From NCBI GenBank assembly GCA_944381495.1, contig CALWLJ010000023.1:1-52433 (forward strand): a DNA stretch of 52,433 nt. The letters run 5' to 3'. Position 1 is the first letter of the stretch. Each line of letters opens with the position of its first letter. Both the position numbers and the translations under genes were made by a program. This DNA is from an uncultured Mediterraneibacter sp. Lineage in GTDB: Bacteria; Bacillota; Clostridia; Lachnospirales; Lachnospiraceae. Positions 5,047 through 36,566 of this stretch are shown in pieces. A model generated the notes under the pieces. The model had not been told where the DNA came from. It worked only from the letters and a program-made list of their open reading frames with translations, and ran no database searches.

Positions 5047-5191
5047 GATCGTCCTGTTTCCTTTCCATCCCCTGGCAAATGTCTGCCCGTGAGAGTACGG
5101 CAGCCGCTTACCAGGCTTATCGCATATCGCACAAAAGCGCTGCCGGAAAAAGAGGCGGCAAAACACCTCTGTTCACGACAGCACTGCTGTA

Positions 5192-5620
5192 TCATTCCAT
5201 TTCTGTTATGGTGATCTTTCTGTAGTCGAATCCCTGCTCCAGATCTTTCTCGATCAGGATCTCTGTCCGCTTGTCCGGAAGGATTTCCCGGATCAGATCC
5301 GCCCACTCGATCAGAGAGACACCGTCTCCCATAATATAGTCTTCAAATCCCACTTCATCCATCTCTTCCACATCGCCGATCCGGTAGACGTCAAAGTGAT
5401 AGAACGGCAGTCTGCCCCCTTCGTACACCTGGACGATGGTAAATGTAGGACTGTTCACCGGTTCATCTATCCCCAGGCCCTTTGCCAGCCCCTGGGTAAA
5501 AACCGTTTTTCCCACTCCCAGGTCGCCGGTCAGAGTATATACCTGCCCCGGGCGAGATTTTTCTCCCAGCTGTTCACCCAGGCGGAACGTTTCTTCCGGG
5601 CTTCTCGTCTCTATAACCAT
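5192..5620 (-). CDS. tsaE: t6A biosynthesis ATPase TsaE
   Basis: 142 residues. The P-loop GDLGVGKTVFTQG is at about residues 32-44, followed by SPTFTIVQVYEG and YHFDVYRI, typical of TsaE. It hydrolyses ATP to turn over the TsaBD complex in t6A37 formation. It lies 12 bp after the AICAR transformylase gene. tsaE, tsaB and tsaD are in one run; tsaC/tsaC2, which makes threonylcarbamoyl-AMP, is not in the window. Confidence 0.95.
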   Translation of the reverse strand: MVIETRSPEETFRLGEQLGEKSRPGQVYTLTGDLGVGKTVFTQGLAKGLGIDEPVNSPTFTIVQVYEGGRLPFYHFDVYRIGDVEEMDEVGFEDYIMGDGVSLIEWADLIREILPDKRTEILIEKDLEQGFDYRKITITEME

Positions 5621-5632
5621 ACAGCTGGCCTC

Positions 5633-6811
5633 CTAGTGATGGAACAGACGGATACCGGTAAATGCCATCGCCATACCATATTTATTGCATGTAGCGATCA
5701 CGTTGTCGTCACGAACAGATCCGCCCGGCTGTGCTACATACTTCACGCCGCTCTTATGCGCTCTCTCAATATTGTCGCCAAACGGGAAGAATGCATCAGA
5801 CCCCAGCGAGACGTCCGTCAGCTTATCCAGCCATGCTCTTTTCTCCTCGCGGGTAAACACTTCCGGTTTCACCTTAAATGTGTTCTCCCACACACCGTCT
5901 GCCAGCACATCCATATACTCTTCGCCGATGTAAAGATCAATGGCGTTGTCTCTGTCAGCGCGGCGGATATCATCCTTAAACTGCAGTCCCATTACCTTCG
6001 GGCTCTGGCGCAGCCACCAGTTGTCTGCTTTCTGCCCTGCCAGCCGTGTACAGTGGATGCGAGACTGCTGTCCGGCACCGATACCGATAGCCTGTCCGTC
6101 TTTGACATAGCACACGGAATTGGACTGTGTATATTTCAGCGTGATCATGGAGATTGCCAGATCAATCTTCGCTGCTTCCGGAATTTCCTTGTTCTCCGTA
6201 ACTACATTGGAGAAGAAATCCTTGTCAATATTCAGCTCATTTCTTCCCTGTTCGAATGTAATGCCGAACACTTCCTTGTGTTCCAGCGCCGCCGGCACAT
6301 AATCCGGATCGATCTGGATAATGTTGTAATTGCCCTTTTTCTTCTGTCTCAGAAGTTCCAGTGCCTCAGGCTCATATCCCGCGGCGATCACACCATCTGA
6401 CACTTCTCTTTTGATCAGACGCGCCGTATCTACATCGCAGACATCGGACAGCGCGATAAAATCACCAAAGGATGACATCCGGTCAGCGCCTCTCGCTCTG
6501 GCATATGCACTTGCGAGGGGGGAGAGTTCTCCAAGATCATCCACCCAATAGATCTTCGCCAGAGTATCAGACAGCGGAAGACCTACTGCTGCTCCTGCCG
6601 GTGATACATGCTTAAATGAAGTCGCAGCCGGAAGCCCTGTAGCTTTCTTCAGCTCAGACACCAGCTGCCAGCCGTTAAAAGCATCCAGAAAGTTAATATA
6701 TCCCGGACGACCACAGAGTACAGTGATCGGGAGATCACTGCCGTCGCTCATATAGATCCTGGAAGGCTTCTGATTCGGGTTGCATCCATATTTCAGTTCT
6801 AATTCTTTCAT
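5633..6811 (-). CDS. Stand-alone AICAR formyltransferase
   Basis: 392 residues. This is the transformylase half of classical PurH without the IMP cyclohydrolase half. It converts AICAR to FAICAR with 10-formyl-THF. The catalytic Lys-His pair is visible in TSFKHVSPAGAA near residue 66. SVCYVKDGQAIGIGAGQQSR and SDAFFPFGDNIERA are the usual downstream motifs. The cyclohydrolase step is supplied by the neighbouring PurO-type gene 15 bp upstream, so the two form a two-gene replacement for bifunctional PurH. Confidence 0.92.
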   Translation of the reverse strand: MKELELKYGCNPNQKPSRIYMSDGSDLPITVLCGRPGYINFLDAFNGWQLVSELKKATGLPAATSFKHVSPAGAAVGLPLSDTLAKIYWVDDLGELSPLASAYARARGADRMSSFGDFIALSDVCDVDTARLIKREVSDGVIAAGYEPEALELLRQKKKGNYNIIQIDPDYVPAALEHKEVFGITFEQGRNELNIDKDFFSNVVTENKEIPEAAKIDLAISMITLKYTQSNSVCYVKDGQAIGIGAGQQSRIHCTRLAGQKADNWWLRQSPKVMGLQFKDDIRRADRDNAIDLYIGEEYMDVLADGVWENTFKVKPEVFTREEKRAWLDKLTDVSLGSDAFFPFGDNIERAHKSGVKYVAQPGGSVRDDNVIATCNKYGMAMAFTGIRLFHH

Positions 6812-6826
6812 CTCTTCATCCGCTCC

Positions 6827-7540
6827 TTACTGGTTTTTATTTACAATCCTTGTCTCATAGTTACCTGTCTCGATATCAATATAGCGGACAAAAAGAGATA
6901 CCTTGTTGTCCTCGTTCAGACTGTTCCACAGAAGATCTGTAAATGCGTCCATATCATCCATAACGCCGATCAGCTTCGGCTCGCCCTCAAAGCTGGGGAG
7001 CGGGTCTCCGTCACACATATAAGTGTGAATAAAATGTCCCTCTCCTGCCGCCGGATTCTCATAGGCGAACGTATATCTGCAGCATCCCTCCGGGCTGCCG
7101 TTATTGCTCTTGAGGATCGACATCGCGTAATTGTAGGATCCGTTCTCGATGTGCATGATTCCTGATATACGGGGTGTATAATTCGGGCCGTCCGGTTCGA
7201 ACTCCCGTGTTCTCAGGGACTGCTCAAAAGTAAGCTGTCTGTCCATTCCATCGTAAATGGTATCTGTCTGATCTCCATTGGTCACGATCGTCTTGTTCCC
7301 AAGGACACGAACCGGAGCGTAGATGATCAGGCTGGGGTCTGTCAATTTGGAGGGGTCAAACGCCTGCGTACGGATCCCCTCTCCGTCCTCTACAAAAATC
7401 CTGTTTCTGCTGTTCTCGCTGCGTCCCATGATAAAGTACGCCGCCACAGCCTTTGTTCCATCCGGAGTCTTTCCGAGAATGATTCCTCTTCCCGGATAAG
7501 AATTTTCCTTCAGTTCCTGCTCGATCGATAACATCTTCAT
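6827..7540 (-). CDS. purO: IMP cyclohydrolase, PurO (archaeal) type
   Basis: 237 residues from ATG at 7540, supported by AAAGGAG at 7551-7557; the longer frame to 7561 would bury that ribosome site. It closes FAICAR to IMP, the last step of de novo purine synthesis. It resembles the PurO family (YPGRGIILG near the N-terminus, PNYTPRISG, CRYTFAYENPAAGEG) rather than the MGS-like cyclohydrolase domain of PurH. It sits directly upstream of the stand-alone AICAR transformylase, which supports the assignment. Confidence 0.88.
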   Translation of the reverse strand: MKMLSIEQELKENSYPGRGIILGKTPDGTKAVAAYFIMGRSENSRNRIFVEDGEGIRTQAFDPSKLTDPSLIIYAPVRVLGNKTIVTNGDQTDTIYDGMDRQLTFEQSLRTREFEPDGPNYTPRISGIMHIENGSYNYAMSILKSNNGSPEGCCRYTFAYENPAAGEGHFIHTYMCDGDPLPSFEGEPKLIGVMDDMDAFTDLLWNSLNEDNKVSLFVRYIDIETGNYETRIVNKNQ

Positions 7541-7576
7541 CGCTCTGGTTCTCCTTTCCATTGGTTGTGTCTTATA

Positions 7577-8977
7577 TTATTTTTCTTTCTTGTCTTTTTC
7601 TTTTCTGTCTTTCTCTTTCCGGCTGTCTTTCTCCTTGCGGTCGGCTTCCTCATCCTCTTCCTCCGGGGGAAGCACCTTCAGCCTTACACGGCTGATCCGG
7701 TTATCCTTCACTTCTTCCACAGCGAACTCCAGGTTCTGACACTGGATCACATCGCGGTCTTCCTTCGCCGGAATATGTCCCAGCTGCTCGATCAGATATC
7801 CGGACAATGTGTCGTAGTTCTCTGTCTCAAGTTTCAGTCCAAGTTCATCGTTCAGATCTTCAATCAGCACGCTGCCGTCGAGAAGATATTCATCCTCGCT
7901 GACCGCTTCAATCTCTGGTACGACTTCCTCGTATTCGTCATTGATCTCACCCATAATTTCCTCTACCAGGTCCTCAATAGTGACAATACCGGAAAAACCG
8001 CCATACTCATCCACGAGAAGAGCCATATGATGTCTGCTCGCCTGCATGCTGCGGAACAGCTCATCTGCCTCTTTCGTCTCCGGGACAAAGAACGGCTTGT
8101 GAAGCATCTCTCTTATATTTATCTGCTCAAGCCCTGATTTTCTAAGCTCGATCATCACATCTTTTACATGAAGCACACCGATGATGTTATCAATATTCTC
8201 CTCATAAACCGGAATCCTGCTGTGTCTGGACTCAAGGATCTCATCGATCAGTTCGTCAAACGGATCCTCAATATTGATAGACACCACGTCTCGCCTGGGC
8301 ACCATAACCTCCCTGGCGGTCCTGTCGTCAAAGGCAAATACCGAGTCGATCATCTCCCGCTCTTCATCATCGAAGGTTCCGCTCTCGTTTCCCTGTTTCA
8401 GAAGAGCTTTTATCTCTTCCTCAGTAACCGCCTCTTCCTGGTCTTCCGTCTGCATATGCAGGATCTTGAGAACCAGCTTGGTGGATACAGAGAGCAGTTT
8501 TGTAAACGGTGACAGAATAATGGAAATATAGTGCACCGGCATAACTGTCAGCATACAGAAAGCCTCCGCCTTCTGAAGCGCGATCCTTTTGGGTACCAGC
8601 TCACCAAACACCAGATTAAAAAACATCAGTAACAGTGTGACTCCGTTGTGCGCGATCTGTGAACTGTACGGAATGTTAAATCCACGCATCCATTCTGCCA
8701 GAACAGGGGAGATTCCCGCCGCCGCAGAAGCAGATGAGTAGAAGCCTGCAAATGTGATCGCCACCTGAATGGTCGACAGGAACTTCGTAGAATCATCAAA
8801 AAGTCCTTCGATCACCTTTGCCTTCTTGTTTCCTTCTTCTGCCAGGGCCCGTATCCGGTTCTTATTGACCGATACGACCGCCATCTCGGCTCCCGCGAAG
8901 TAAGCGTTCAGCAATGTGAAAAATAACAACAGTAACAGTTCAAATAGAATCGAGTTTCCCGCAGGGTCTGCGTCCAT
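7577..8977 (-). CDS. CorC/HlyC-family membrane protein (DUF21, CBS pair, CorC_HlyC)
   Basis: 466 residues. The N-terminal DUF21 transmembrane region (about residues 8-180) contains NAYFAGAEMAVVSVNKNRIRAL. Two CBS domains follow (about 215-335; VMVPRRDVV and VDEYGGFSGIVTIEDLVEEI). A C-terminal CorC_HlyC domain (about 350-435) comes next. Members act in Mg2+ or other cation efflux; the substrate here is not deducible. The tail ends in a striking Lys/Glu/Asp repeat (KEKDRKEKDKKEK), encoded by a simple-sequence tract at 7577-7640. The ribosome site AAGGAGGAG precedes the ATG. Confidence 0.9.
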   Translation of the reverse strand: MDADPAGNSILFELLLLLFFTLLNAYFAGAEMAVVSVNKNRIRALAEEGNKKAKVIEGLFDDSTKFLSTIQVAITFAGFYSSASAAAGISPVLAEWMRGFNIPYSSQIAHNGVTLLLMFFNLVFGELVPKRIALQKAEAFCMLTVMPVHYISIILSPFTKLLSVSTKLVLKILHMQTEDQEEAVTEEEIKALLKQGNESGTFDDEEREMIDSVFAFDDRTAREVMVPRRDVVSINIEDPFDELIDEILESRHSRIPVYEENIDNIIGVLHVKDVMIELRKSGLEQINIREMLHKPFFVPETKEADELFRSMQASRHHMALLVDEYGGFSGIVTIEDLVEEIMGEINDEYEEVVPEIEAVSEDEYLLDGSVLIEDLNDELGLKLETENYDTLSGYLIEQLGHIPAKEDRDVIQCQNLEFAVEEVKDNRISRVRLKVLPPEEEDEEADRKEKDSRKEKDRKEKDKKEK

Positions 8978-9058
8978 AAAAAATACTCCTCCTTAAAATA
9001 TATAAATATAATATCAGGAGAAGTATATCATGCAGACTGTATTTTCGCAAGTTCCGTT

Positions 9059-9550
9059 TCAGCTGCTCTTTCCCGTATGCTCTGCGATGAACTTTGTCAT
9101 CTCCCCCACCGGAACTCCCAGAACATAGGAAAATTCACTGTAGAGAGCATGCTCAAGAAGCATCTGGTACTTTCTGTCCATGCTTGTGACACTGCCTCTG
9201 CTCTGCGTCCTCCGGTACAGCGTTTTCAGCACCTTTACCCAGTTTTCAGGACAGTAGTCAGAGATGCAGTTCTTGTACTCCTGCTCTCTTAATTTTTCAT
9301 TTTTCACACTCAGCACATCAATATCCGGCATCCTGCTGATCAGGTCCATAGCCTCTTCCCGGCTCACCGGCTTACGGATATTTGTCTCGTCATCTGTCGG
9401 AACATAGGCCCGGTCCCGGGCATCTTCCACGGATTGAAGCGTATAATACTTTTTCTTCTGATCTGCAAAAGAAAAATCCAACGTTCCGATCTCTTCCACC
9501 TTGTATAAACCTCTGCACTTATAAACAACCGCGTCTCCTCTGCTGAGCAT
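9059..9550 (-). CDS. CarD/CdnL-family RNA polymerase-binding regulator
   Basis: 163 residues, typical length. The N-terminal Tudor-like RNAP-interaction domain (residues 1-60) begins LSRGDAVVYKCRGLYKVEEIG. The C-terminal helical part (about 70-160) includes WVKVLKTLYRRT and SEFSYVLGVPVGEM. CarD proteins bind the polymerase beta subunit and stabilise open complexes, often on rRNA promoters. The gene stands alone, about 80 bp before the CorC gene, with a 255-bp upstream gap. Confidence 0.88.
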   Translation of the reverse strand: MLSRGDAVVYKCRGLYKVEEIGTLDFSFADQKKKYYTLQSVEDARDRAYVPTDDETNIRKPVSREEAMDLISRMPDIDVLSVKNEKLREQEYKNCISDYCPENWVKVLKTLYRRTQSRGSVTSMDRKYQMLLEHALYSEFSYVLGVPVGEMTKFIAEHTGKSS

Positions 9551-9601
9551 TCATATCCTCCTTCCATTTTTCTACTACTACTCAAAGTATAGCCAAAGAA
9601 A

Positions 9602-9631
9602 GGCCGGTACAACGTTTGTAACGGCCTTTTT
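9602..9631. terminator. Hairpin between the anti-sigma and CarD genes
   Basis: GGCCG-x-TACAA (9602-9612) pairs with TTGTA-x-CGGCC (9616-9626) around a 3-base loop. A T5 run follows on the plus strand, and TTTCTTT follows on the minus strand. It could end the leftward sigma/anti-sigma transcript. The rest of 9551-9806 is AT-rich with no gene. Confidence 0.5.
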
Positions 9632-9806
9632 CGCAGTCTTACCAGATATACTTTAACACAATTCCCGACAATAATGGTAATATTTTTGCAATTGTCAATT
9701 ATTTTCGTCAATTATTCCTAATTATGTGACATATTGTTTTGTGCATTATTCCAGTCGGATTTTTGTCACTCCCCAGTTTTATACAAAGTTGGAGTTTACG
9801 CCGGCT

Positions 9807-10967
9807 TTATGATATTGGCACGTATATGGCACAGGTGACCGAACCATCTTCGTTTAAGGTAAACGTCGCGATTTTCAGAGATTCCATGCCCTTTTCATAG
9901 TCAAAATAAGCCAGCCGGTCTGACATTCCAGTTTTGCCGTCCGGAAACATCCGTGCCCGCTCCATATATACTCCGCCCAATTCCTCGCCATCTATCATAT
10001 AATGATAGATAACTCCATCCTCATCTGCAGGTATAGTCCACACGGTGCTTTCCACTCTTTCGGCGTACTGATCAATATTCTCCGGCGTAATTTTCGCCAT
10101 AAAGGCATCCACTTCCGACTGCTCCTGCACACTATCCTGATCTGAATCTTCATCCGGCATCAGATCAGCGATATACTGCTCCGCCGCTTCCCGATCCGCC
10201 TGTTTGGAATCAAGCGGAAGTGTAAACAGGGCGTTGACTCCTTCATAAGATTCCGTCCGGGTTATCGCTCCAGATGCTTCATCGTAGGAATATGCGGCTT
10301 CATCAAAGAAATCTCCGGAGAGTACACACAGATAAACTGTCCGGTCCGCAAACATCTCAAGATTATCACACTCTGTCAGGCGGTATAAGATACCATCCTG
10401 AGTGAACTCAACATATGCTCCATCCATCGAACCGATATTAACAAACAGCGGATTGCACCCCTCTATCAGCGGAGATATGAAAAATCTCTCGCTGTCATAT
10501 TCCGGATCCGACAGTTGCTCCGGCATAGAGCTCCCGTCCGCCCTGCCGACCGCAGTGACCGCATAAGTACGGTCCGCCTGAACCTCACCATTTTTCTCTG
10601 TCAAATGGTCCGCAATCTCCTCCCCGGACACGATTCCAAGAAGGGTCACATCATAATCCCGGAAATGCTGCGTCTCATTGATCTTGACTGCATCTTCCGA
10701 TTCAAAAGCCGCCGCCAGTTTCTTATCTCCTGTATGCTCTGCTGCTTCCTGCGGCGTCAGAAATCTGTATGCAGCGTATACTCCTGCCGATCCCAGCACC
10801 AATGTCAATGCAATAGCAAACACGATTCCCGGAGCCCATTTTTTTCTTTTTTTCATCATCCCATCCGTCTCCTTTACCTGATTGATGATCTTCCGGTTAA
10901 GCCGGAGATCAGGTTCTTCATTGGGAGCCAGGGCCTGTTTTAAAATGTCATCATACTTCTCAGTCAT
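9807..10967 (-). CDS. Membrane-anchored anti-sigma-type protein
   Basis: 386 residues. A cytoplasmic N-terminus (about 1-40) is followed by one transmembrane helix near residues 44-66 (APGIVFAIALTLVLGSAGVYAAY) and a large extracytoplasmic domain with no family I recognise. Its start overlaps the upstream sigma-factor stop by 8 bp, the classical sigma/anti-sigma arrangement. Function as an anti-sigma or sensor is inferred from this coupling and topology. No zinc-binding HxxxCxxC motif is visible. Confidence 0.7.
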   Translation of the reverse strand: MTEKYDDILKQALAPNEEPDLRLNRKIINQVKETDGMMKKRKKWAPGIVFAIALTLVLGSAGVYAAYRFLTPQEAAEHTGDKKLAAAFESEDAVKINETQHFRDYDVTLLGIVSGEEIADHLTEKNGEVQADRTYAVTAVGRADGSSMPEQLSDPEYDSERFFISPLIEGCNPLFVNIGSMDGAYVEFTQDGILYRLTECDNLEMFADRTVYLCVLSGDFFDEAAYSYDEASGAITRTESYEGVNALFTLPLDSKQADREAAEQYIADLMPDEDSDQDSVQEQSEVDAFMAKITPENIDQYAERVESTVWTIPADEDGVIYHYMIDGEELGGVYMERARMFPDGKTGMSDRLAYFDYEKGMESLKIATFTLNEDGSVTCAIYVPIS

Positions 10968-11499
10968 TTAAAACACTCTCCAATTCTCTTTCCAGCCGCT
11001 TTCTTGCCTGGTGCAGTCTGCTTTTTACAGTTCCCTCGGGCAGACGCAGGATCTCTGATATCTCCATTATCTGCCGTTCTTCCATATAATATAACAGGAC
11101 CGGAACTCTCAGCCTGTCCGGCAGCCGTGAGACTGCCCTGCGGACAGCATTCAGCCGTTCCTCCTCCAGGATCCGTTCCTCCGGCAGGACGCTTACATCC
11201 TGCATCTCTTCCGCAGTGATTCTGTCTGCAGTCTGCTCGTTCAGTTCCTGCTCCTGCGCAATCCGCCTTCTCCATGCCCGTTTTCTCCGACGGTTTTTCC
11301 ACAGACGGACAGCCACAGACAGCAGGTAACTTCTGATATTTCCGGCTATATCGATCCGGTCGATCTTCTCCAGCGCCGTCAGGAATGTATCCTGATACAG
11401 GTCATCTGCCTCCTGACGGCTGCCGCACAGACTGACACAGAAGGAATAGATCTCTCTGCCATATTCTGTTATAAATTGCTCCATTTCAAGATTGGTCAT
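10960..11499 (-). CDS. ECF RNA polymerase sigma factor
   Basis: 179 residues. Region 2 (about 20-75) includes EADDLYQDTFLTALEKI and IRSYLLSVAVRLWKNRRRK. Region 4 (about 115-170) includes LPDRLRVPVLLYYMEERQIMEISEIL and PEGTVKSRLHQARKRLE, a clear helix-turn-helix. It directs RNA polymerase to stress-type promoters and is presumably held by the membrane partner encoded downstream. GGGAG lies 10 bases before the ATG. The acidic linker between regions 2 and 4 is long. Confidence 0.9.
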   Translation of the reverse strand: MTNLEMEQFITEYGREIYSFCVSLCGSRQEADDLYQDTFLTALEKIDRIDIAGNIRSYLLSVAVRLWKNRRRKRAWRRRIAQEQELNEQTADRITAEEMQDVSVLPEERILEEERLNAVRRAVSRLPDRLRVPVLLYYMEERQIMEISEILRLPEGTVKSRLHQARKRLERELESVLND

Positions 11500-11574
11500 T
11501 TCGCTTTTTCTCCCGTAAGACGTCTCTGGGATCTTGCCCCTTCACTGATATATTGTAATAATTCTGGCGGAGGT

Positions 11575-14241
11575 TCAGATTTTTATCTCGTCAATAACAT
11601 TTTCTTTCAGCATCCGCCTTGCCGGCACGAAAACCGCGGCCGATGCAATGACTATGTTCAGCGCCATGACCCCGGCCATTACCAGATCGGGCACTCCGGA
11701 TGACAGATGCAGGAACTGTACGATATGCATCATGTAATAATCCATCACTCTGCGCAGGAACATATTATACAACAGGAAAATGAAGAGATCGGCCAGCAGT
11801 CCGTACATGATCCCTGTCTTCAGGATCATCCTGTAGAAACCTGCGTCCGTGATCCCCATGGCCCGGATAATGCCGTACTCTCTGCGGCGGGCAAGGATGG
11901 AGTAGTTCATGCTGTTGACGATATGGAACAGACTGATCACCAGGATGATTCCTGCGATCCCCGAGAAGAAGAGCTGCTGCTGATTCAGATAATTTCTCTG
12001 AGTCCGGATGGCCGTCGTATAATCCGTCAGCACAGCCTTCGGAACATCCCGGATCACCTGGAGCAGCTGTGCGCTGACTAGATCCGGCTGCGCGTCGTCA
12101 GCGGGAGACGCATTTACAAAGCTGTATCCTGTAATACCGAAACTTTCTTCCATCTGCTCATTGGTCAGGATCACGCTCTGTGTATTGCTCCACGCATCCA
12201 CATTCATAAAGCTGTCTTCCTGGGCCAGCGGCCTGCTGACGATGGCAGCAATCTCGAACTCCTTCTCTACATACTGCTCACCACTTTCCTGAAATTTCAG
12301 CAGCTCATCTGTATAGCCGTCCATTTTCGGAACCTTCAGAGTGATCCTGTCTCCCGGCTTCTTTCCGTAGAAATAGTAATTTCCCTGGCCGTCCACATTG
12401 GCAACTGCAATGATCTGATCCTCCGCCTTCATCCGGGCCGGATCCACATCACCTTCCAGGATATAATCCTGAAGCTGCGCGATCATCCCGTCATCATAGC
12501 CGTAAACATCGTATTTGATCCCGTAGCTTCCATCCTCTTTCCGCACGCAGATTCCGCCGTATCTCTGGTTAAAGTAGGTATCGTTGTTCTTCTCATCGAA
12601 ATAATACTGCCAGTCCGGATCGTGCAGGAACTCCTCTTCCGTCAGCTGAACTTCTCCTAATGTATACCTCGTTCCGAACGTATCTGCCGCATCCGGCATT
12701 TTGCGGATCGCGTCCACCACAGACTCCGGCAGAGTATCGGCAAGTGATGCGGAACGCAGGGATATCCGGTATTCCGATCCCAGTCCGTCGTCTGATTTCA
12801 GAGACAGCTCTGCGTGGATCTTCAGATTCTCCACCATATAAGTCGTGCATAAGAAAATGCAGCCGCCAACAGACAGGGACAGCAGGATCCCCAGCACCTT
12901 TCTTTTGTTGGAGAACATGAACTTCCGGACCACAACGCCTGCCAGGTCTGCATGACGCTTTGCATAAATCTTCCTGCGCCTGGCAAATGAGGTGTCTCCG
13001 CTCATCACCTCTCTGAGAGAATGCCTGCGGAGAGAATAAACCGTAACATATCCGGCCGCGGCAAGCGCCGCCAACATAAATACGAATCCAACAGCCGCCG
13101 CATCCCAGGCCACAAAGAAGCCGCTTTCCGAAGACGCGGTCTGTGCCAGCGTCTGATCCGCCGCAGTCAGCTGAGCTCCTCCGGTAAGAGATGCTCCGTA
13201 ATCCTGAAATACTCCGGTCAAACTTCCGTAGCAAAGTCCGAGGATCCCGTTCCCGGCCAGACAGCCGAGAGGATATCCGATAAGGAACATGGTCCAAAGC
13301 TCAAGGACCAGAGTGGCTCCGATCCGTTTCTCACTGATACCCAGCGTCTGCATCATCCCATATTCCGCCGTCCTTTTTGACGCGGAAATATTGAACACAC
13401 TGTACACAACAAACAGGCTGAACAGGCAGAGGAGCAGGATCATCCCGTAATAAGAGAGATTGTATTCTGATTCCAGTTTTAAAACAATGTAGGTAAAGTT
13501 CCCCTGCTCATTCGTCAGACCAAATCTGACAATATCCGGAATGCTGTCCGCCGGCTCTCCTCCCAGATACTGCGTCACCTCATCATTTGCCTCCGCTCCG
13601 TCAAATGGCAGCCCGTATTTCCGCTGAAATGCCTCCAACTGTCTGTACAGTTTTCCATCTTCCGCGAATTGGAGATAAAGGAACCTCTGGCTCCCTCGCC
13701 CGATAAAGGAGTCGCTCACAAATACCTCCATCTCACTGGCGCTGGCAGCCCACTCGCTCTGGAGAATCCCTGTTACAATGTATTCTGTGCCGCCTATGTC
13801 AATGGCATCGCCAACATTTCCTGAAAAGCCCAGATTACTCAGAACATATGCATCCGCCGCAATCTCATTTTCCGCTTCCGGGTAAGTCCCTTCAATCAGC
13901 TGGCGGTGTGCCATTTTCCGGTAATCTTCATCTCCATAGACAAAGTAGATGACATAAGGCTCGGACACTGCGTCCCGGATTTCCATCTTTCCGCACTGTT
14001 CCAGCGTATACCCGTCTCCCGCTTCGCCGCTTTGCACGCTGCTGTACGTTTCTGCGTCCGCCTCCATCTGGTAATGCCAGTCTCCGTAGATTGCTTTGTC
14101 GTTTGCGATCTCGCTCTGCCGGCTGCTGTACATCAGGGAAGCGATTCCCGAGAGCAGGCCGGCCGTCAGAAAGATACTGATAAATATTGCAAAGGTCTGA
14201 CTTCTGTAGAATTTCATATATTTCCATGCCAGTTTCAGCAT
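11575..14241 (-). CDS. ABC transporter permease with two FtsX domains
   Basis: 888 residues. There is an N-terminal helix (about 15-38) and a large extracytoplasmic domain (about 40-265). A first FtsX/MacB core (about 268-410) contains the coupling sequence KRTAEYGMMQTLGISEKRIG. A central helix (about 447-470) and second external domain (to about 750) follow. A second FtsX core with ARRREYGIIRAMGITDAGFY lies at about 755-880. Proteins of this layout usually work in antimicrobial-peptide or cell-envelope export rather than nutrient uptake. It overlaps the ATPase gene by 7 bp. Confidence 0.88.
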   Translation of the reverse strand: MLKLAWKYMKFYRSQTFAIFISIFLTAGLLSGIASLMYSSRQSEIANDKAIYGDWHYQMEADAETYSSVQSGEAGDGYTLEQCGKMEIRDAVSEPYVIYFVYGDEDYRKMAHRQLIEGTYPEAENEIAADAYVLSNLGFSGNVGDAIDIGGTEYIVTGILQSEWAASASEMEVFVSDSFIGRGSQRFLYLQFAEDGKLYRQLEAFQRKYGLPFDGAEANDEVTQYLGGEPADSIPDIVRFGLTNEQGNFTYIVLKLESEYNLSYYGMILLLCLFSLFVVYSVFNISASKRTAEYGMMQTLGISEKRIGATLVLELWTMFLIGYPLGCLAGNGILGLCYGSLTGVFQDYGASLTGGAQLTAADQTLAQTASSESGFFVAWDAAAVGFVFMLAALAAAGYVTVYSLRRHSLREVMSGDTSFARRRKIYAKRHADLAGVVVRKFMFSNKRKVLGILLSLSVGGCIFLCTTYMVENLKIHAELSLKSDDGLGSEYRISLRSASLADTLPESVVDAIRKMPDAADTFGTRYTLGEVQLTEEEFLHDPDWQYYFDEKNNDTYFNQRYGGICVRKEDGSYGIKYDVYGYDDGMIAQLQDYILEGDVDPARMKAEDQIIAVANVDGQGNYYFYGKKPGDRITLKVPKMDGYTDELLKFQESGEQYVEKEFEIAAIVSRPLAQEDSFMNVDAWSNTQSVILTNEQMEESFGITGYSFVNASPADDAQPDLVSAQLLQVIRDVPKAVLTDYTTAIRTQRNYLNQQQLFFSGIAGIILVISLFHIVNSMNYSILARRREYGIIRAMGITDAGFYRMILKTGIMYGLLADLFIFLLYNMFLRRVMDYYMMHIVQFLHLSSGVPDLVMAGVMALNIVIASAAVFVPARRMLKENVIDEIKI

Positions 14242-14945
14242 ATCCCCTCACCGCCTTCCCCATGGAAACGGCGCCTTCCGGATACGATCTGGCCATCCTC
14301 GATGTGGATGATCCGGTCGCATGTCTGGGCGATTGCTTCATTATGCGTGACCATCAGGATGGTCTGGCTGTATTTCCGGCAGCTGGCCTTCAACAGCCCC
14401 ATCACCTCCACTGTAGTAGCCGAATCCAGATTTCCCGTCGGTTCATCGCACAGAAGCAGGGCAGGCTTGTTCACCAGCGCCCTGGCGATCGCTACTCTCT
14501 GCTGCTGCCCTCCAGACAGTTCATGGGGATACTTCTTCCTCTTATCCCAGATTCCCAGCTCTCTTAACAGCTCCTCGATATATCTCCGGTTCAGGTGCTT
14601 TCCCCGGTCAAACGTCACCGGAAGAGCCACATTATCATATACATTTAGTACCGGCATCAGACTGTAGTTCTGAAAAACGAATCCGATATTCCGCCTGCGG
14701 AAGATAGTCAGTTCCTTCCTTGACAGAGAAGAGATTTCCCTGCCCTTTACAGATATGCTGCCTCCTGTGGGAGAATCCAGTCCGCCGATGAGATTCAGAA
14801 GCGTAGATTTACCCGATCCCGAAGTTCCTACTATAGCGATAAATTCTCCTTCCCCAACCTGCAGGCTCACCCCTCGGAGAGCTCTGACCTGATTTTCCTT
14901 TTCTCCATATACTTTTTCCACCTGTCTCAGATCCAGTATGTTCAT
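14235..14945 (-). CDS. ABC transporter ATP-binding protein (MacB/LolD type)
   Basis: 236 residues. Walker A GTSGSGKSTLLN near residue 40, Q-loop in FVFQNYSLMP, signature LSGGQQQRVAIARAL near 142, Walker B LLLCDEPTGNLD, and the H-loop in ILMVTHNEAIA. It powers the adjacent two-FtsX permease. The start is supported by AAAGGAG 9 bases upstream. The 110-bp gap upstream holds a promoter and an operator-like palindrome, so the transporter pair can be transcribed independently of the genes before it. Confidence 0.93.
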   Translation of the reverse strand: MNILDLRQVEKVYGEKENQVRALRGVSLQVGEGEFIAIVGTSGSGKSTLLNLIGGLDSPTGGSISVKGREISSLSRKELTIFRRRNIGFVFQNYSLMPVLNVYDNVALPVTFDRGKHLNRRYIEELLRELGIWDKRKKYPHELSGGQQQRVAIARALVNKPALLLCDEPTGNLDSATTVEVMGLLKASCRKYSQTILMVTHNEAIAQTCDRIIHIEDGQIVSGRRRFHGEGGEGIC

Positions 14946-14955
14946 CTGTCACCGC

Positions 14956-15012
14956 TCCTTTACTGTAAATAGCGCCGGCACCTTTGGATCTTCTCCTCTG
15001 TACCGACGCTAT
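14956..15012 (-). other. Leader hairpin before the ABC ATPase
   Basis: On the minus strand ATAGCGTCGGTAC pairs with GTGCCGGCGCTAT over 13 bp with two G-U pairs. It lies just after a -10-like TATACT (15014-15019) and before the ribosome site. It may act as an mRNA leader structure; no U-tract follows. Confidence 0.35.
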
Positions 15013-15055
15013 CAGTATATCCGACCGTTCTTTCAGTTTCTTTACAAATGCAGGA

Positions 15056-16081
15056 TCAGTTCTTACAGTTTTGTAAGAACACGGAGAAGCAGCTTCCTTC
15101 TCCATATACAGAATCAACTGTCATGTATCCCTTTTCCTTCTCCAGGATCAGGTTCGACAGATACAGACCAATCCCGGACCCCTCCACATTCTCCGTGTCC
15201 TTTCCGCGATAAAACCGCTTGAATATTTCTGTGATCTCCTCCTGCCTGATCCCCATGCCGTTATCAGCGAAACGGATCTCTGTATACAGCTCATAAGGCC
15301 GGACAGATATTTCCACTCTTCCCCCTCTTTCTGTATACTTTACAGCATTTTCAAGGATATTGGCGAACACTTCCGCCGTCCACTTCCTGTTATGGAAAAG
15401 AGGCATGTCATCAAAAGGAACTACCGACAGCGTGATTTCCTTTTTCTCCAGCCTGTCATACACCGTGTCCACCGCATCCAGGATCGTCTGCCGGATGGGT
15501 GCATCCTGTACCGGGAAAGAATCAATATTCTGTTCCAGTTTCACCATCTTGGACAGTGACTCTATGATCCAGGTGAGCTTTTCCACCTGCCGGCTCATCT
15601 TCTTCAGAAATCCCCTGCGCTGCTCCGGATCCAGATCATCACTTCCAAGGATTTCCGAATAGATCGACAGATTGGCAAGGGGAGTTTTCAGCTGGTGGGA
15701 CATATTGGAGACCAGGCTTTTCACCTGCTCCTTCTCCTCTTCTGCTCTGTCCTTCTGCTGCCCCAGTACATTCTGTATCTGCAGAACTCTGCTCACCAGA
15801 GCGGAAAACCCTCCCTCTTCCACGTCTGACTGCAGGATCGGCTCCCCGTTCAGCACACAGTCCAGCAGACGGTCGATCTTCTGATAAGTTTTTCTTTTTT
15901 CCCGGATGCCGTATCCCACAGAAAGGATCAGCAGCACCAGATCATAACTGCCCTGTACGATCTCCCGCAGCCCATCCCTCTTCGTCCCCGCGCCTGCCGC
16001 TTCATCTCCGTCTGCAGTGAATGAAAAAAGCAGGCCCTCTCTCAAATCTGTATCATCCTCAATAATCAGTATCTTGCTCAT
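15056..16081 (-). CDS. Chimeric two-component protein: truncated response-regulator start fused to sensor-less histidine kinase
   Basis: 341 residues, intact frame. Residues 1 to about 51 are the start of an OmpR-type receiver (KILIIEDDTDLREG through YDLVLL). The frame changes identity exactly where the phospho-accepting aspartate should follow. From about residue 52 (ILSVGYGIREKRK) it is the end of a kinase membrane helix. Next come a dimerisation/phosphoacceptor helix (SNMSHQLKTPLANL, His near 137) and the ATPase domain with N-box ILENAVKYTERGG, DNGMGI and GSGIGLYL. The rest of the receiver, the whole DNA-binding domain and the kinase sensor are gone. The start overlaps the methyltransferase stop as ATGA. 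It is probably a deletion product, soluble or poorly anchored. Confidence 0.85.
   Translation of the reverse strand: MSKILIIEDDTDLREGLLFSFTADGDEAAGAGTKRDGLREIVQGSYDLVLLILSVGYGIREKRKTYQKIDRLLDCVLNGEPILQSDVEEGGFSALVSRVLQIQNVLGQQKDRAEEEKEQVKSLVSNMSHQLKTPLANLSIYSEILGSDDLDPEQRRGFLKKMSRQVEKLTWIIESLSKMVKLEQNIDSFPVQDAPIRQTILDAVDTVYDRLEKKEITLSVVPFDDMPLFHNRKWTAEVFANILENAVKYTERGGRVEISVRPYELYTEIRFADNGMGIRQEEITEIFKRFYRGKDTENVEGSGIGLYLSNLILEKEKGYMTVDSVYGEGSCFSVFLQNCKN
15059..15080. promoter_or_regulatory. Operator-like palindrome upstream of the ABC transporter
   Basis: A perfect inverted repeat with 9-bp arms (GTTCTTACA and TGTAAGAAC) around 4 bases. Its core TTACA-N4-TGTAA matches the consensus I know for response regulators of peptide-sensing BceRS-type systems. 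It overlaps the last codons of the upstream kinase gene. It lies about 40 bases upstream of a TATACT -10 box (15014-15019), a usual activator position. Confidence 0.5.
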
Positions 16082-16803
16082 TTTCTCGCCCTCACAAGAA
16101 GCATCATCGGCCGGCGCATCTCGTCCTTCATACCGGGGATATCCAACATGCTCTCGTCAGGCATCGCCTCTTCCACTGCTTCCAGAGCAAATCCAGCATT
16201 CAGCAGTCCCATCAGGATCTGAGTCAGGGTGTGATGATATTTTCTGACCCTTTTCCCGAGAAAAAGCGTAGAGCGTTCTCCGGGATAATAGTAATTATCA
16301 ACGGGCCAGTATTCCGGATTGCCGTCCTTGTCATAGATCCAGTCCTCGTTCACCCCGGCGGTAAAGGCCGGATGCTCAATATTAAGGAGAAAGATACCTC
16401 CCGGCTTCAGAGTCCGGCAGATCTTCTGATAAACGGTATCCAGATCTTCGATATAGTGGAGCGCCAGATTCGACACTACGCAGTCATATTCCTCCTCGGG
16501 ATACTCATATTCTTCCAGTCCGCAGATCCGATAGGTGATCCGCTCATCTCCATTGATCTCCCTCGCACGGGCGATCATCTTCTCACTCAGGTCAATGCCC
16601 AGGACTGATGCAGCTCCCTGCTCTGCCGCATATTTGCAGTGCCAGCCGTAACCGCAGCCCAGATCCAGCACTTTCATCCCCGACATATCCGGGAACAGAT
16701 TCCGGAACTGGTGCCACTCACCGGCTCCTGCCAGCCCGTCTCTGCTGCGGGACATCTGGGCATATGCGTCAAAAAATGTTTCATTATCGTAAATATTTTC
16801 CAT
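16078..16803 (-). CDS. Class I SAM-dependent methyltransferase
   Basis: 241 residues from ATG at 16803 (AAAGGAA upstream); an upstream in-frame extension of 51 residues looks non-coding. SAM-binding motif I is VLDLGCGYGWH near residue 47, an acidic VLGIDLSEKMI follows at motif II, and VVSNLALHYI matches motif IV-V. The substrate is unknown; the family includes small-molecule and ubiquinone-type methylases. It is coupled by a 4-base overlap to the kinase chimera and lies 47 bp after the DUF2812 gene. Confidence 0.85.
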   Translation of the reverse strand: MENIYDNETFFDAYAQMSRSRDGLAGAGEWHQFRNLFPDMSGMKVLDLGCGYGWHCKYAAEQGAASVLGIDLSEKMIARAREINGDERITYRICGLEEYEYPEEEYDCVVSNLALHYIEDLDTVYQKICRTLKPGGIFLLNIEHPAFTAGVNEDWIYDKDGNPEYWPVDNYYYPGERSTLFLGKRVRKYHHTLTQILMGLLNAGFALEAVEEAMPDESMLDIPGMKDEMRRPMMLLVRARK

Positions 16804-16850
16804 TATGGTTCCTTTCAGTAAAATATATTGTTCCGTTTTCTCCGATCTCT

Positions 16851-17408
16851 TCAGCTTTTCAGCCGGTTCTTCAGATTCCAGTAATGAACCCCGAACTTGG
16901 CACAGATATAAGTGTAAAGCGCAAGCAGGACCGAATACAGGATAAGAAGGATCCACCTGTCTCCCCGCTGTTCATCCATAAGTCCTATAAACTGCGGAAT
17001 GATAAGGCAGAACATGATAATAAGGATAGGGAACATCCTCGCCTGAAAAACACGCCTGAGCATCTCAAGCCTCGACTCGTCATCGCAGAATATCTTCTCG
17101 TCACCCTTCATCTCTGCCCTTGGCTTGCGGAAATAAGTATAGCCTACATACTCCATCAGATATTCCCATCCGCAGTCCTGAAACATCTGGATATACTCTT
17201 CTTTATGATTCAGGCCTTCTTCATTGTAGTCCAGCTGATACACCACATCTTCGGGCGTACACTTCTCAAAGAAATAGATCCCCGGCAGAGTCACATTTAC
17301 AAACTTCCATCCCCGCCTGTGCATCCTGCTCAGATACTCTCCTTCTTCTTCATAATCCGTGATCAGGAACACTTTGAATTCTTTCTTCATTTCACCAAAC
17401 CCGCTCAT
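16851..17408 (-). CDS. DUF2812-type membrane protein
   Basis: 185 residues. The N-terminal soluble part (about 1-110) has the DUF2812 pattern (LSRMHRRGWKF, YQLDYN, DCGWEYL, YTYFRK). Two C-terminal transmembrane helices follow (about 127-143 and 152-170). These proteins are commonly encoded next to PadR repressors and may modulate them or envelope functions, but no activity is established. Its ATG overlaps the PadR stop region by 4 bases and uses AAGGAGG inside the PadR 3' end. Confidence 0.8.
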   Translation of the reverse strand: MSGFGEMKKEFKVFLITDYEEEGEYLSRMHRRGWKFVNVTLPGIYFFEKCTPEDVVYQLDYNEEGLNHKEEYIQMFQDCGWEYLMEYVGYTYFRKPRAEMKGDEKIFCDDESRLEMLRRVFQARMFPILIIMFCLIIPQFIGLMDEQRGDRWILLILYSVLLALYTYICAKFGVHYWNLKNRLKS

Positions 17409-17722
17409 CCCAGCACCTCCTTTACATTCCTGTAGAGTCTCTCGATCCGTTTCGTCTCCAGGTCCAGCACTTCCTGTCCCAGCTCTGTAATATGATAGAT
17501 CTTTCTCTTTTCTTCTTCCCTTACAAAACAGATCAGACCGTCCTTCTCCATCTTGGAGAGACTTCCGTACATGGTCCCCGGGCTGAGGATGATATCCCCG
17601 TCCGTCAGCTGCTCCACCTTCTGAACGATCCCGTATCCGTGCATCTCTTCCCGGAGACAGAGCAGGATATAGAAACCAGTCTCAGTCATCGGTACATAAA
17701 CTTTTCTGATATGTGCATCCAT
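17405..17722 (-). CDS. PadR-family transcriptional repressor
   Basis: 105 residues from ATG at 17722, chosen because GAGGAGG lies just upstream and the longer frame would run into the operator. A winged helix occupies about residues 10-75 (FYILLCLREEMHGYGIVQKV, LSPGTMYGSLSKMEKDGLI), with a C-terminal dimerisation helix. It heads the leftward operon PadR, DUF2812, methyltransferase, kinase chimera, and probably represses its own promoter through the large palindrome at 17747-17796. Confidence 0.92.
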   Translation of the reverse strand: MDAHIRKVYVPMTETGFYILLCLREEMHGYGIVQKVEQLTDGDIILSPGTMYGSLSKMEKDGLICFVREEEKRKIYHITELGQEVLDLETKRIERLYRNVKEVLG

Positions 17723-17746
17723 GGCATCCTCCTCTATCGAAGCGCA

Positions 17747-17796
17747 ATACATCGCAGTGCTATATATCTTAATTTATATATAGCACTGCGATGTAT
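17747..17796. promoter_or_regulatory. PadR operator: perfect 21-bp inverted repeat
   Basis: Arms 17747-17767 and 17776-17796 are perfect reverse complements with an 8-base AT-rich spacer; each arm contains CATCGCAGTGC. It covers the padR -10 (TATATA, 17777-17782) and most of the spacer to the -35 (TTGACA, 17800-17805). Binding would therefore block the promoter. Autorepression by PadR is inferred from position. Confidence 0.75.
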
Positions 17797-17805
17797 ATCT
17801 GTCAA
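17777..17805 (-). promoter_or_regulatory. padR operon promoter
   Basis: Minus-strand TTGACA (17800-17805), 17-base spacer, TATATA (17777-17782), embedded in the palindrome. Confidence 0.7.
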
Positions 17806-17879
17806 GATGTTTTTCTTTTTCAAGTAACCATTCAACCAAAATGCGGGCCATAATCTCCGGCTTTATCGAGGCTTTATTC

Positions 17880-36463: not shown

Positions 36464-36479
36464 AAGCCCCTCCTTATCG

Positions 36480-36520
36480 ATTGGGGACGTAGTAAAACTC
36501 GATTTTACTACGTCCCCAAT
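36480..36520. repeat. Perfect 18-bp palindromic element between ecfT and truA
   Basis: Arms 36480-36497 and 36503-36520 are perfect reverse complements around 5 bases; the outer part is GGGGACGTAGTAAAA. No U-tract follows in either direction. It looks like a REP/RAYT-type or small non-autonomous element rather than a terminator. It sits in the 100-bp gap between two genes that are normally tightly linked. Confidence 0.6.
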
Positions 36521-36566
36521 TGAGATTCAGTGTGTCCCTTTTCGAATATCGATCAACCGGCTCTCT

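Follow-up and report, generated by a model that had tools for sequence, protein, structure and literature searches.

In the Bce-like module, as usually delimited, the histidine kinase has exactly two helices with a loop of 12 residues or fewer, and the permease has ten helices, the seventh and eighth of which are separated by a loop longer than 170 residues (PMC3023708). Hybrid histidine kinases combine a kinase and a complete receiver in one chain. For natural fusions of the regulator-kinase kind, literature searches listed no paper to the point. The locus described here lies in a 52,433-nucleotide stretch of DNA from an uncultured Mediterraneibacter sp. (the window, by which we mean the whole stretch analysed). 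An ORF of 341 aa with an ATG start (positions 15056-16081, minus strand) is a fusion of a response regulator and a histidine kinase, and is followed by the genes for an ABC transporter (Table 1).

The comparison covered 21 loci, namely 18 distinct relatives, second copies (L101 for G049 and L102 for G003) and the locus L079 of the genome G070. As an earlier note on this DNA had predicted, relatives carry full regulator and kinase genes: the two are separate in all 18 distinct relative loci, the kinase of G050 being cut by a contig end. The relatives' kinases are of the HisKA type with one helix and their regulators are of the OmpR type; G056, although a relative, was left out of the regulator comparison. 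An ABC gene follows the kinase in 16 of the 18 loci and a permease gene is present in 15; contigs end before the full operon in L100, L103 (G050) and L082 (G043), and in L085 the kinase and the ABC gene are separated by other ORFs. Five relative loci (L030, L032, L083, L085 and L086) hold a gene of 310-322 codons between regulator and kinase, which by eye looks like a fructosamine-kinase-like phosphotransferase. In L096 (Eubacterium plexicaudatum) the ABC ATPase (6009-6717) is broken up, perhaps by a frameshift, into two frames that overlap and encode 102 and 182 aa.

Pfam matches and the alignment of relatives bear out the earlier description of the ORF as an in-frame chimera of a response-regulator N-terminus and a histidine kinase, whose start overlaps the methyltransferase stop by 4 nt as ATGA and whose frame is kept across the join. 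In an alignment of 18 regulators the OmpR-type receiver part, which the note took to span ~51 residues, indeed breaks off after YDLVLL, one residue short of the phospho-acceptor Asp, and kinase sequence occupies the Asp position, so that a complete receiver is lacking. A scan limited to the first 69 residues aligned residues 4-51 with positions 1-48 of the 111 of PF00072, at E 0.0069; the 17 bits scored are under the model's cut-off of 30.2. According to the kinase alignment, the kinase is entered inside the relatives' single transmembrane helix. Its core is complete, as the note had it, with HisKA (PF00512) at residues 122-184 (44.5 bits) and HATPase_c (PF02518) at residues 235-337 (74.4 bits), both above the cut-offs. 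The motifs that we take to be the H-box (SHQLKTPL), the N-box and the G-boxes are intact and conserved across the alignment. The protein thereby has what defines a HisKA-type kinase, a DHp domain with the phospho-accepting His and a HATPase_c domain with N and G boxes; because the receiver is cut, it is not a hybrid histidine kinase. The expected absence of a DNA-binding domain agrees with the absence of any Trans_reg_C match at E 0.001 in the fusion, the G043 regulator having one. The suggestion that the product probably lacks a sensor stood as to the loss, but what was lost appears to be a single membrane anchor and not a larger sensor domain: no 19-residue segment of the fusion exceeds the hydropathy threshold, and 17 of the 18 relative kinases have exactly one strongly hydrophobic segment of this length, hydropathy alone being a weak measure that also leaves the relative L099 without such a segment.

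Compared with the regulators of G043 and G069, the receiver part shows 72% and 66% identity; the kinase part (residue 48 on) shows 71% and 69% identity to the kinases of these loci. The kinase tree places the gene beside G043 (support 80/72), and the receiver tree, built on 51 columns, has no resolution. In the predicted structure residues 1-58 have pLDDT <50; only 2 of the 17 aligned sequences span these residues, and a control regulator alone, modelled without an alignment, was also poor (mean 41.7). We dropped the receiver stretch DGDEAAGAG as a candidate sign of decay, the G043 regulator having DGDRAAGAA at this place, which is ancestral variation.

Table 1. Features of the fused gene and its surroundings (window coordinates)
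Feature	Position	Strand	Basis
FtsX-type permease, 888 aa, intact	11575..14241	-	about 8 hydrophobic helices, two large loops
ABC ATPase, intact	14235..14945	-	PF00005; 81-83% identical to orthologues of G001, G069, Faecalimonas umbilicata and Blautia luti
Probable regulator-box promoter of the ABC genes, TGTAAAG-N4-TGAAAGA, N9, TATACTG	15013..15046	-	conservation, pattern scans
Histidine kinase, from inside the transmembrane helix to the end	15059..15928	-	Pfam; relatives' alignment; invariant positions
Inverted repeat TTCTTACA-AAAC-TGTAAGAA in the last kinase codons, upstream part of the probable operator	15060..15079	-	synonymous-site conservation, 8 kinases
Identical tract shared with G070, 506 nt, ending at the G070 kinase deletion	15696..16201	-	sequence comparison
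CTGGTGCTGCTG at the junction, putative short homology	15929..15940	-	codon comparison with relatives; seen in no parent sequence
N-terminal part of an OmpR-type response-regulator receiver, residues 1-51	15929..16081	-	PF00072; alignment to 18 regulators
SAM-dependent methyltransferase, directly upstream, 4-nt overlap with the fused gene	16078..16956	-	Pfam

Measured to the aligned codon in 7 of the 18 relatives, the deletion amounts to 553 nt (five relatives), 557 nt (L098) or 604 nt (G043), less than the ~0.7-1 kb given in the earlier note. The receiver LVLL codons and the VLL codons of the kinase helix are in register at the join. G043 is the most telling relative here: YDIVLLD in its regulator and FLLVLLCLSVGYGIYERRKTY in its kinase helix compare with YDLVLLILSVGYGIREKRKTY in the fusion, and G043 also has CTTCTG at the place of the join, in the same phase. 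The join would be explained if both ancestral genes had carried CTGGTGCTGCTG at this point. A deletion between short homologies had been proposed from the sequence; the relatives support the deletion, and homology as its cause is plausible but not proven, because the two genes share many six-base repeats: each of six loci has 347-406 pairs, of which 164-215 would preserve the reading frame.

An identical junction is found in the sister species G070. A DNA search, which would miss strongly diverged cases, found the full junction in 2 of the 58 genomes of the genus; among 397 sampled genomes of the family, a sample without G070, it occurs in the own genome (G000) alone, and neither a megablast search of plasmids nor an exact-pattern scan of viral contigs gave a match. 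About 12.7 kb of the window (~5126-17806) aligns with G070 contig 91 at 96-99% identity by aligned piece, with some 100-base bins at only 81-91%, whereas outside this block the two genomes are 81-90% identical in the flanks and 91-93% on another contig. A block of high identity with less similar flanks suggests an exchange between the sister species, which was probably recent. The junction lies in the 506-nt identical tract, and identical runs of up to 993 nt occur elsewhere in the block. Homology-facilitated illegitimate recombination produces one homologous and one illegitimate end (PMC3240628), and a tract that ends at the G070 deletion with no shared base at the join would fit such an event; reads shared in one sample would look similar and may be responsible. 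Apart from this block, a stretch of ~60 nt in the window (~36476-36538) is a small, partly palindromic dispersed repeat: about 40 matches to it at 77-98% are listed for the G070 genome, and many of these fall at the same place on both strands.

The allele has decayed further in G070. A frameshifting deletion that begins at the phospho-accepting His codon has taken 343 nt from its kinase, and its permease (L079, G070:C91:5500-15500; 5792-7927) has two in-frame deletions, of 363 and 168 nt, whose ends share 4 and 5 bases; the ATPase gene is intact. The ABC ATPase differs between G000 and G070 by 10 synonymous changes and 1 non-synonymous change; the corresponding counts are 23 and 11 for the methyltransferase, 33 and 25 for the permease codons that both retain, and 7 and 2 for the 83 codons at the end of the kinase; the first 129 fusion codons contain no synonymous difference and a single non-synonymous one, in the codon cut by the G070 deletion. 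The 7:2 ratio points to constraint, though part of the time it covers may precede the fusion. Dating the fusion by this ratio was dropped, because the junction lies in the identical tract, which may have moved later than the rest of the block. The G000 kinase departs from the alignment at 1 of 92 invariant positions, compared with 0-7 in 17 relatives (the G050 kinase, at a contig end, was left out of this count and of the element comparison below, leaving 17 relatives in each), and the receiver part at none of 12. In 24 relative-rate comparisons the own branch had fewer changes in 18, equal numbers in 1 and more in 5, of which 2 gave a chi-square above 3.84. The kinase core in G000 thus shows no sign of damage in these comparisons.

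Between the kinase and the ABC gene lies an element of the conserved form TGTAAAG-N4-TGnAAGA-N9-TATACT. Its direct repeats TGTAAAG and TGAAAGA start 11 nt apart, with a further TGTAAGA 21 nt upstream, and are kept in the nearest relatives. ArcA is a member of the OmpR family. Its sites are described as direct repeats spaced by 11 bp, accompanied by additional repeats at a distance of 11 or 22 bp (PMC3798270). The element is present without mismatches in the window, in G070 and in 5 of the 17 relatives, with 1-2 mismatches in 2 and with 3-5 in 7 (a laxity for which there is no chance control), and has no match in 3 (L099, L100 and G067); 100 shuffles of the window produced none. Across seven whole genomes the exact element occurs once in each of five and is absent from two, and of four places with 2 mismatches two precede a paralogous ABC match by 65-66 nt and the other two lack such a neighbour. 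A sigma-70 scan yielded 5 promoter-like sites against 4.6 expected. The upstream part of the probable operator overlaps the last kinase codons, where FLQNCK is encoded by a single codon at each position in all 8 kinases compared, a run of six that none of 20000 shuffles reached; only 11 of the 134 comparable columns are single-codon, and the choice of these 8 kinases was made once the element was known. A laxer repeat pattern occurs at four places in the own genome, namely the window site, two sites on contig 21 and one without an ABC neighbour, compared with one place for the backward control. The contig 21 sites begin 65 and 120 nt before the starts of ABC matches of 58% and 54% identity, and the second of them has the arrangement of the relatives, with the site between a regulator-kinase pair and the ABC gene. 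We suggest that the element is probably both the binding site of the lost regulator and the promoter of the transporter genes. What is new here would then be a predicted regulator site that has probably been kept intact although its regulator is gone.

The lost regulator was not found elsewhere in G000, where other regulators are at most 43% identical to its G001 orthologue, nor in G070, where they are 28-42% identical to the G043 orthologue. The best-scoring four of the other regulators in the own genome adjoin kinases of their own. Two regulator matches with identical scores lie on different contigs (C11:95040-95636 and C27:9223-9819), as do nearby kinase matches with identical scores (C11:96848 and C27:7325), and represent either a duplicated two-component system or an assembly duplicate.

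The reading that we hold with reasonable confidence is that of a loss-of-regulator lesion, the fused protein being a remnant without an anchor or a cognate partner. This protein keeps a complete kinase core, yet having no usable receiver, anchor or cognate regulator it has most likely lost its signalling output; such loss appears the likeliest outcome, and a dead or nearly dead protein is favoured over an active fused kinase. Since the catalytic motifs are intact, a smaller but real probability attaches to a soluble kinase, either constitutively active or phosphatase-biased, that is under selection and acts on a paralogous OmpR-type regulator recognising the retained operator. The kinase motifs without excess departures, the kept frame, the preponderance of synonymous differences in the last 83 codons, the intact predicted operator and the two paralogous ABC genes with similar upstream sites in the same genome all agree with such activity; half a receiver without its Asp, the missing anchor and cognate regulator, the frameshift of the same allele in G070, and the low identity of the other regulators, the best four of which have their own kinases beside them, make it unlikely. 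Further down the scale we would put the more elaborate proposal that the deletion rewired the system, leaving a soluble, stimulus-blind kinase and an orphaned operator through which a paralogous regulator, one connected with the contig 21 ABC sites, would drive the transporter, the allele having spread between the sister species by recombination.

Two other explanations dispute the deletion itself. If the junction were an assembly or mixed-strain artefact, the real genome would contain both full genes. G000 is a draft of 39 contigs (completeness 91.21), and the 506-nt tract could represent one strain's reads in both assemblies if the sample was shared. Against this, the same junction is present in the assembly of a second species, the two genomes being only 81-93% alike outside the 96-99% block, no trace of the lost regulator exists on other contigs, and the join holds a repeat of no more than 12 nt, shorter than usual assembly words. 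A collapse is for these reasons very improbable. That the 341-residue gene might be an old, established regulator-kinase architecture is hardly credible: although it is common to two species, it is broken in one of them, and the separate genes in all 18 distinct relative loci contradict its antiquity.

Under the loss-of-regulator reading, an operon of regulator, kinase, ABC ATPase and permease would have suffered one deletion of ~0.55-0.60 kb, probably between short repeats in the sequences for receiver LVLL and for VLL of the kinase transmembrane helix, the causal role of the repeat being deduced from its position. Through the deletion the regulator would have lost its phospho-acceptor site, the remaining receiver sequence and its entire DNA-binding domain, and the kinase most of its membrane helix, with one open frame left. 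The transporter genes, with their probable box intact, might now lack induction, be transcribed by read-through from upstream genes or be controlled by a paralogous regulator. The allele lies within a block apparently exchanged between two sister species, in one of which kinase and permease decayed further. The case is a real but fairly ordinary one of gene loss. It provides a natural two-component pair deprived of its regulator, with transporter and probable operator intact and further decay in the sister, and thus a pair of genomes for asking what follows in an operon when the dedicated regulator disappears. The element partly hidden in the last kinase codons is, furthermore, a testable predicted binding site for Lachnospiraceae operons of the relatives' type.

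Among known systems, the locus resembles BceRSAB (PMC3023708) in that a two-component pair stands beside an ABC ATPase and a large FtsX permease, and residues 196-334 of the fused kinase show a weak relationship to BceS (E 3.1e-8). By the definition in that paper the operon nevertheless does not appear to be a Bce-like module: judged from hydropathy only, 17 of the 18 relative kinases have one hydrophobic segment and L099 none, instead of two helices, and the window permease has two large loops and about 8 segments instead of a single such loop and ten segments (complete permeases of the relatives measure 871-933 aa). Hybrid histidine kinases likewise contain receiver and kinase sequence within one protein, but the receiver part of the fusion is N-terminal, stops short of the phospho-acceptor Asp and is the product of a deletion. 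The regulator-kinase-ABC-FtsX operons of the Lachnospiraceae Faecalimonas umbilicata (L095), Blautia luti (L097) and Eubacterium plexicaudatum (L096) have the same gene order, with permeases 65-68% and kinase cores 70-71% identical to those of the window, an ABC ATPase 83% identical in F. umbilicata and B. luti, and, as in the window, a probable promoter element between kinase and ABC gene. Unlike these operons, that of the window has regulator and kinase in one gene, without the output half of the regulator and without the kinase anchor.
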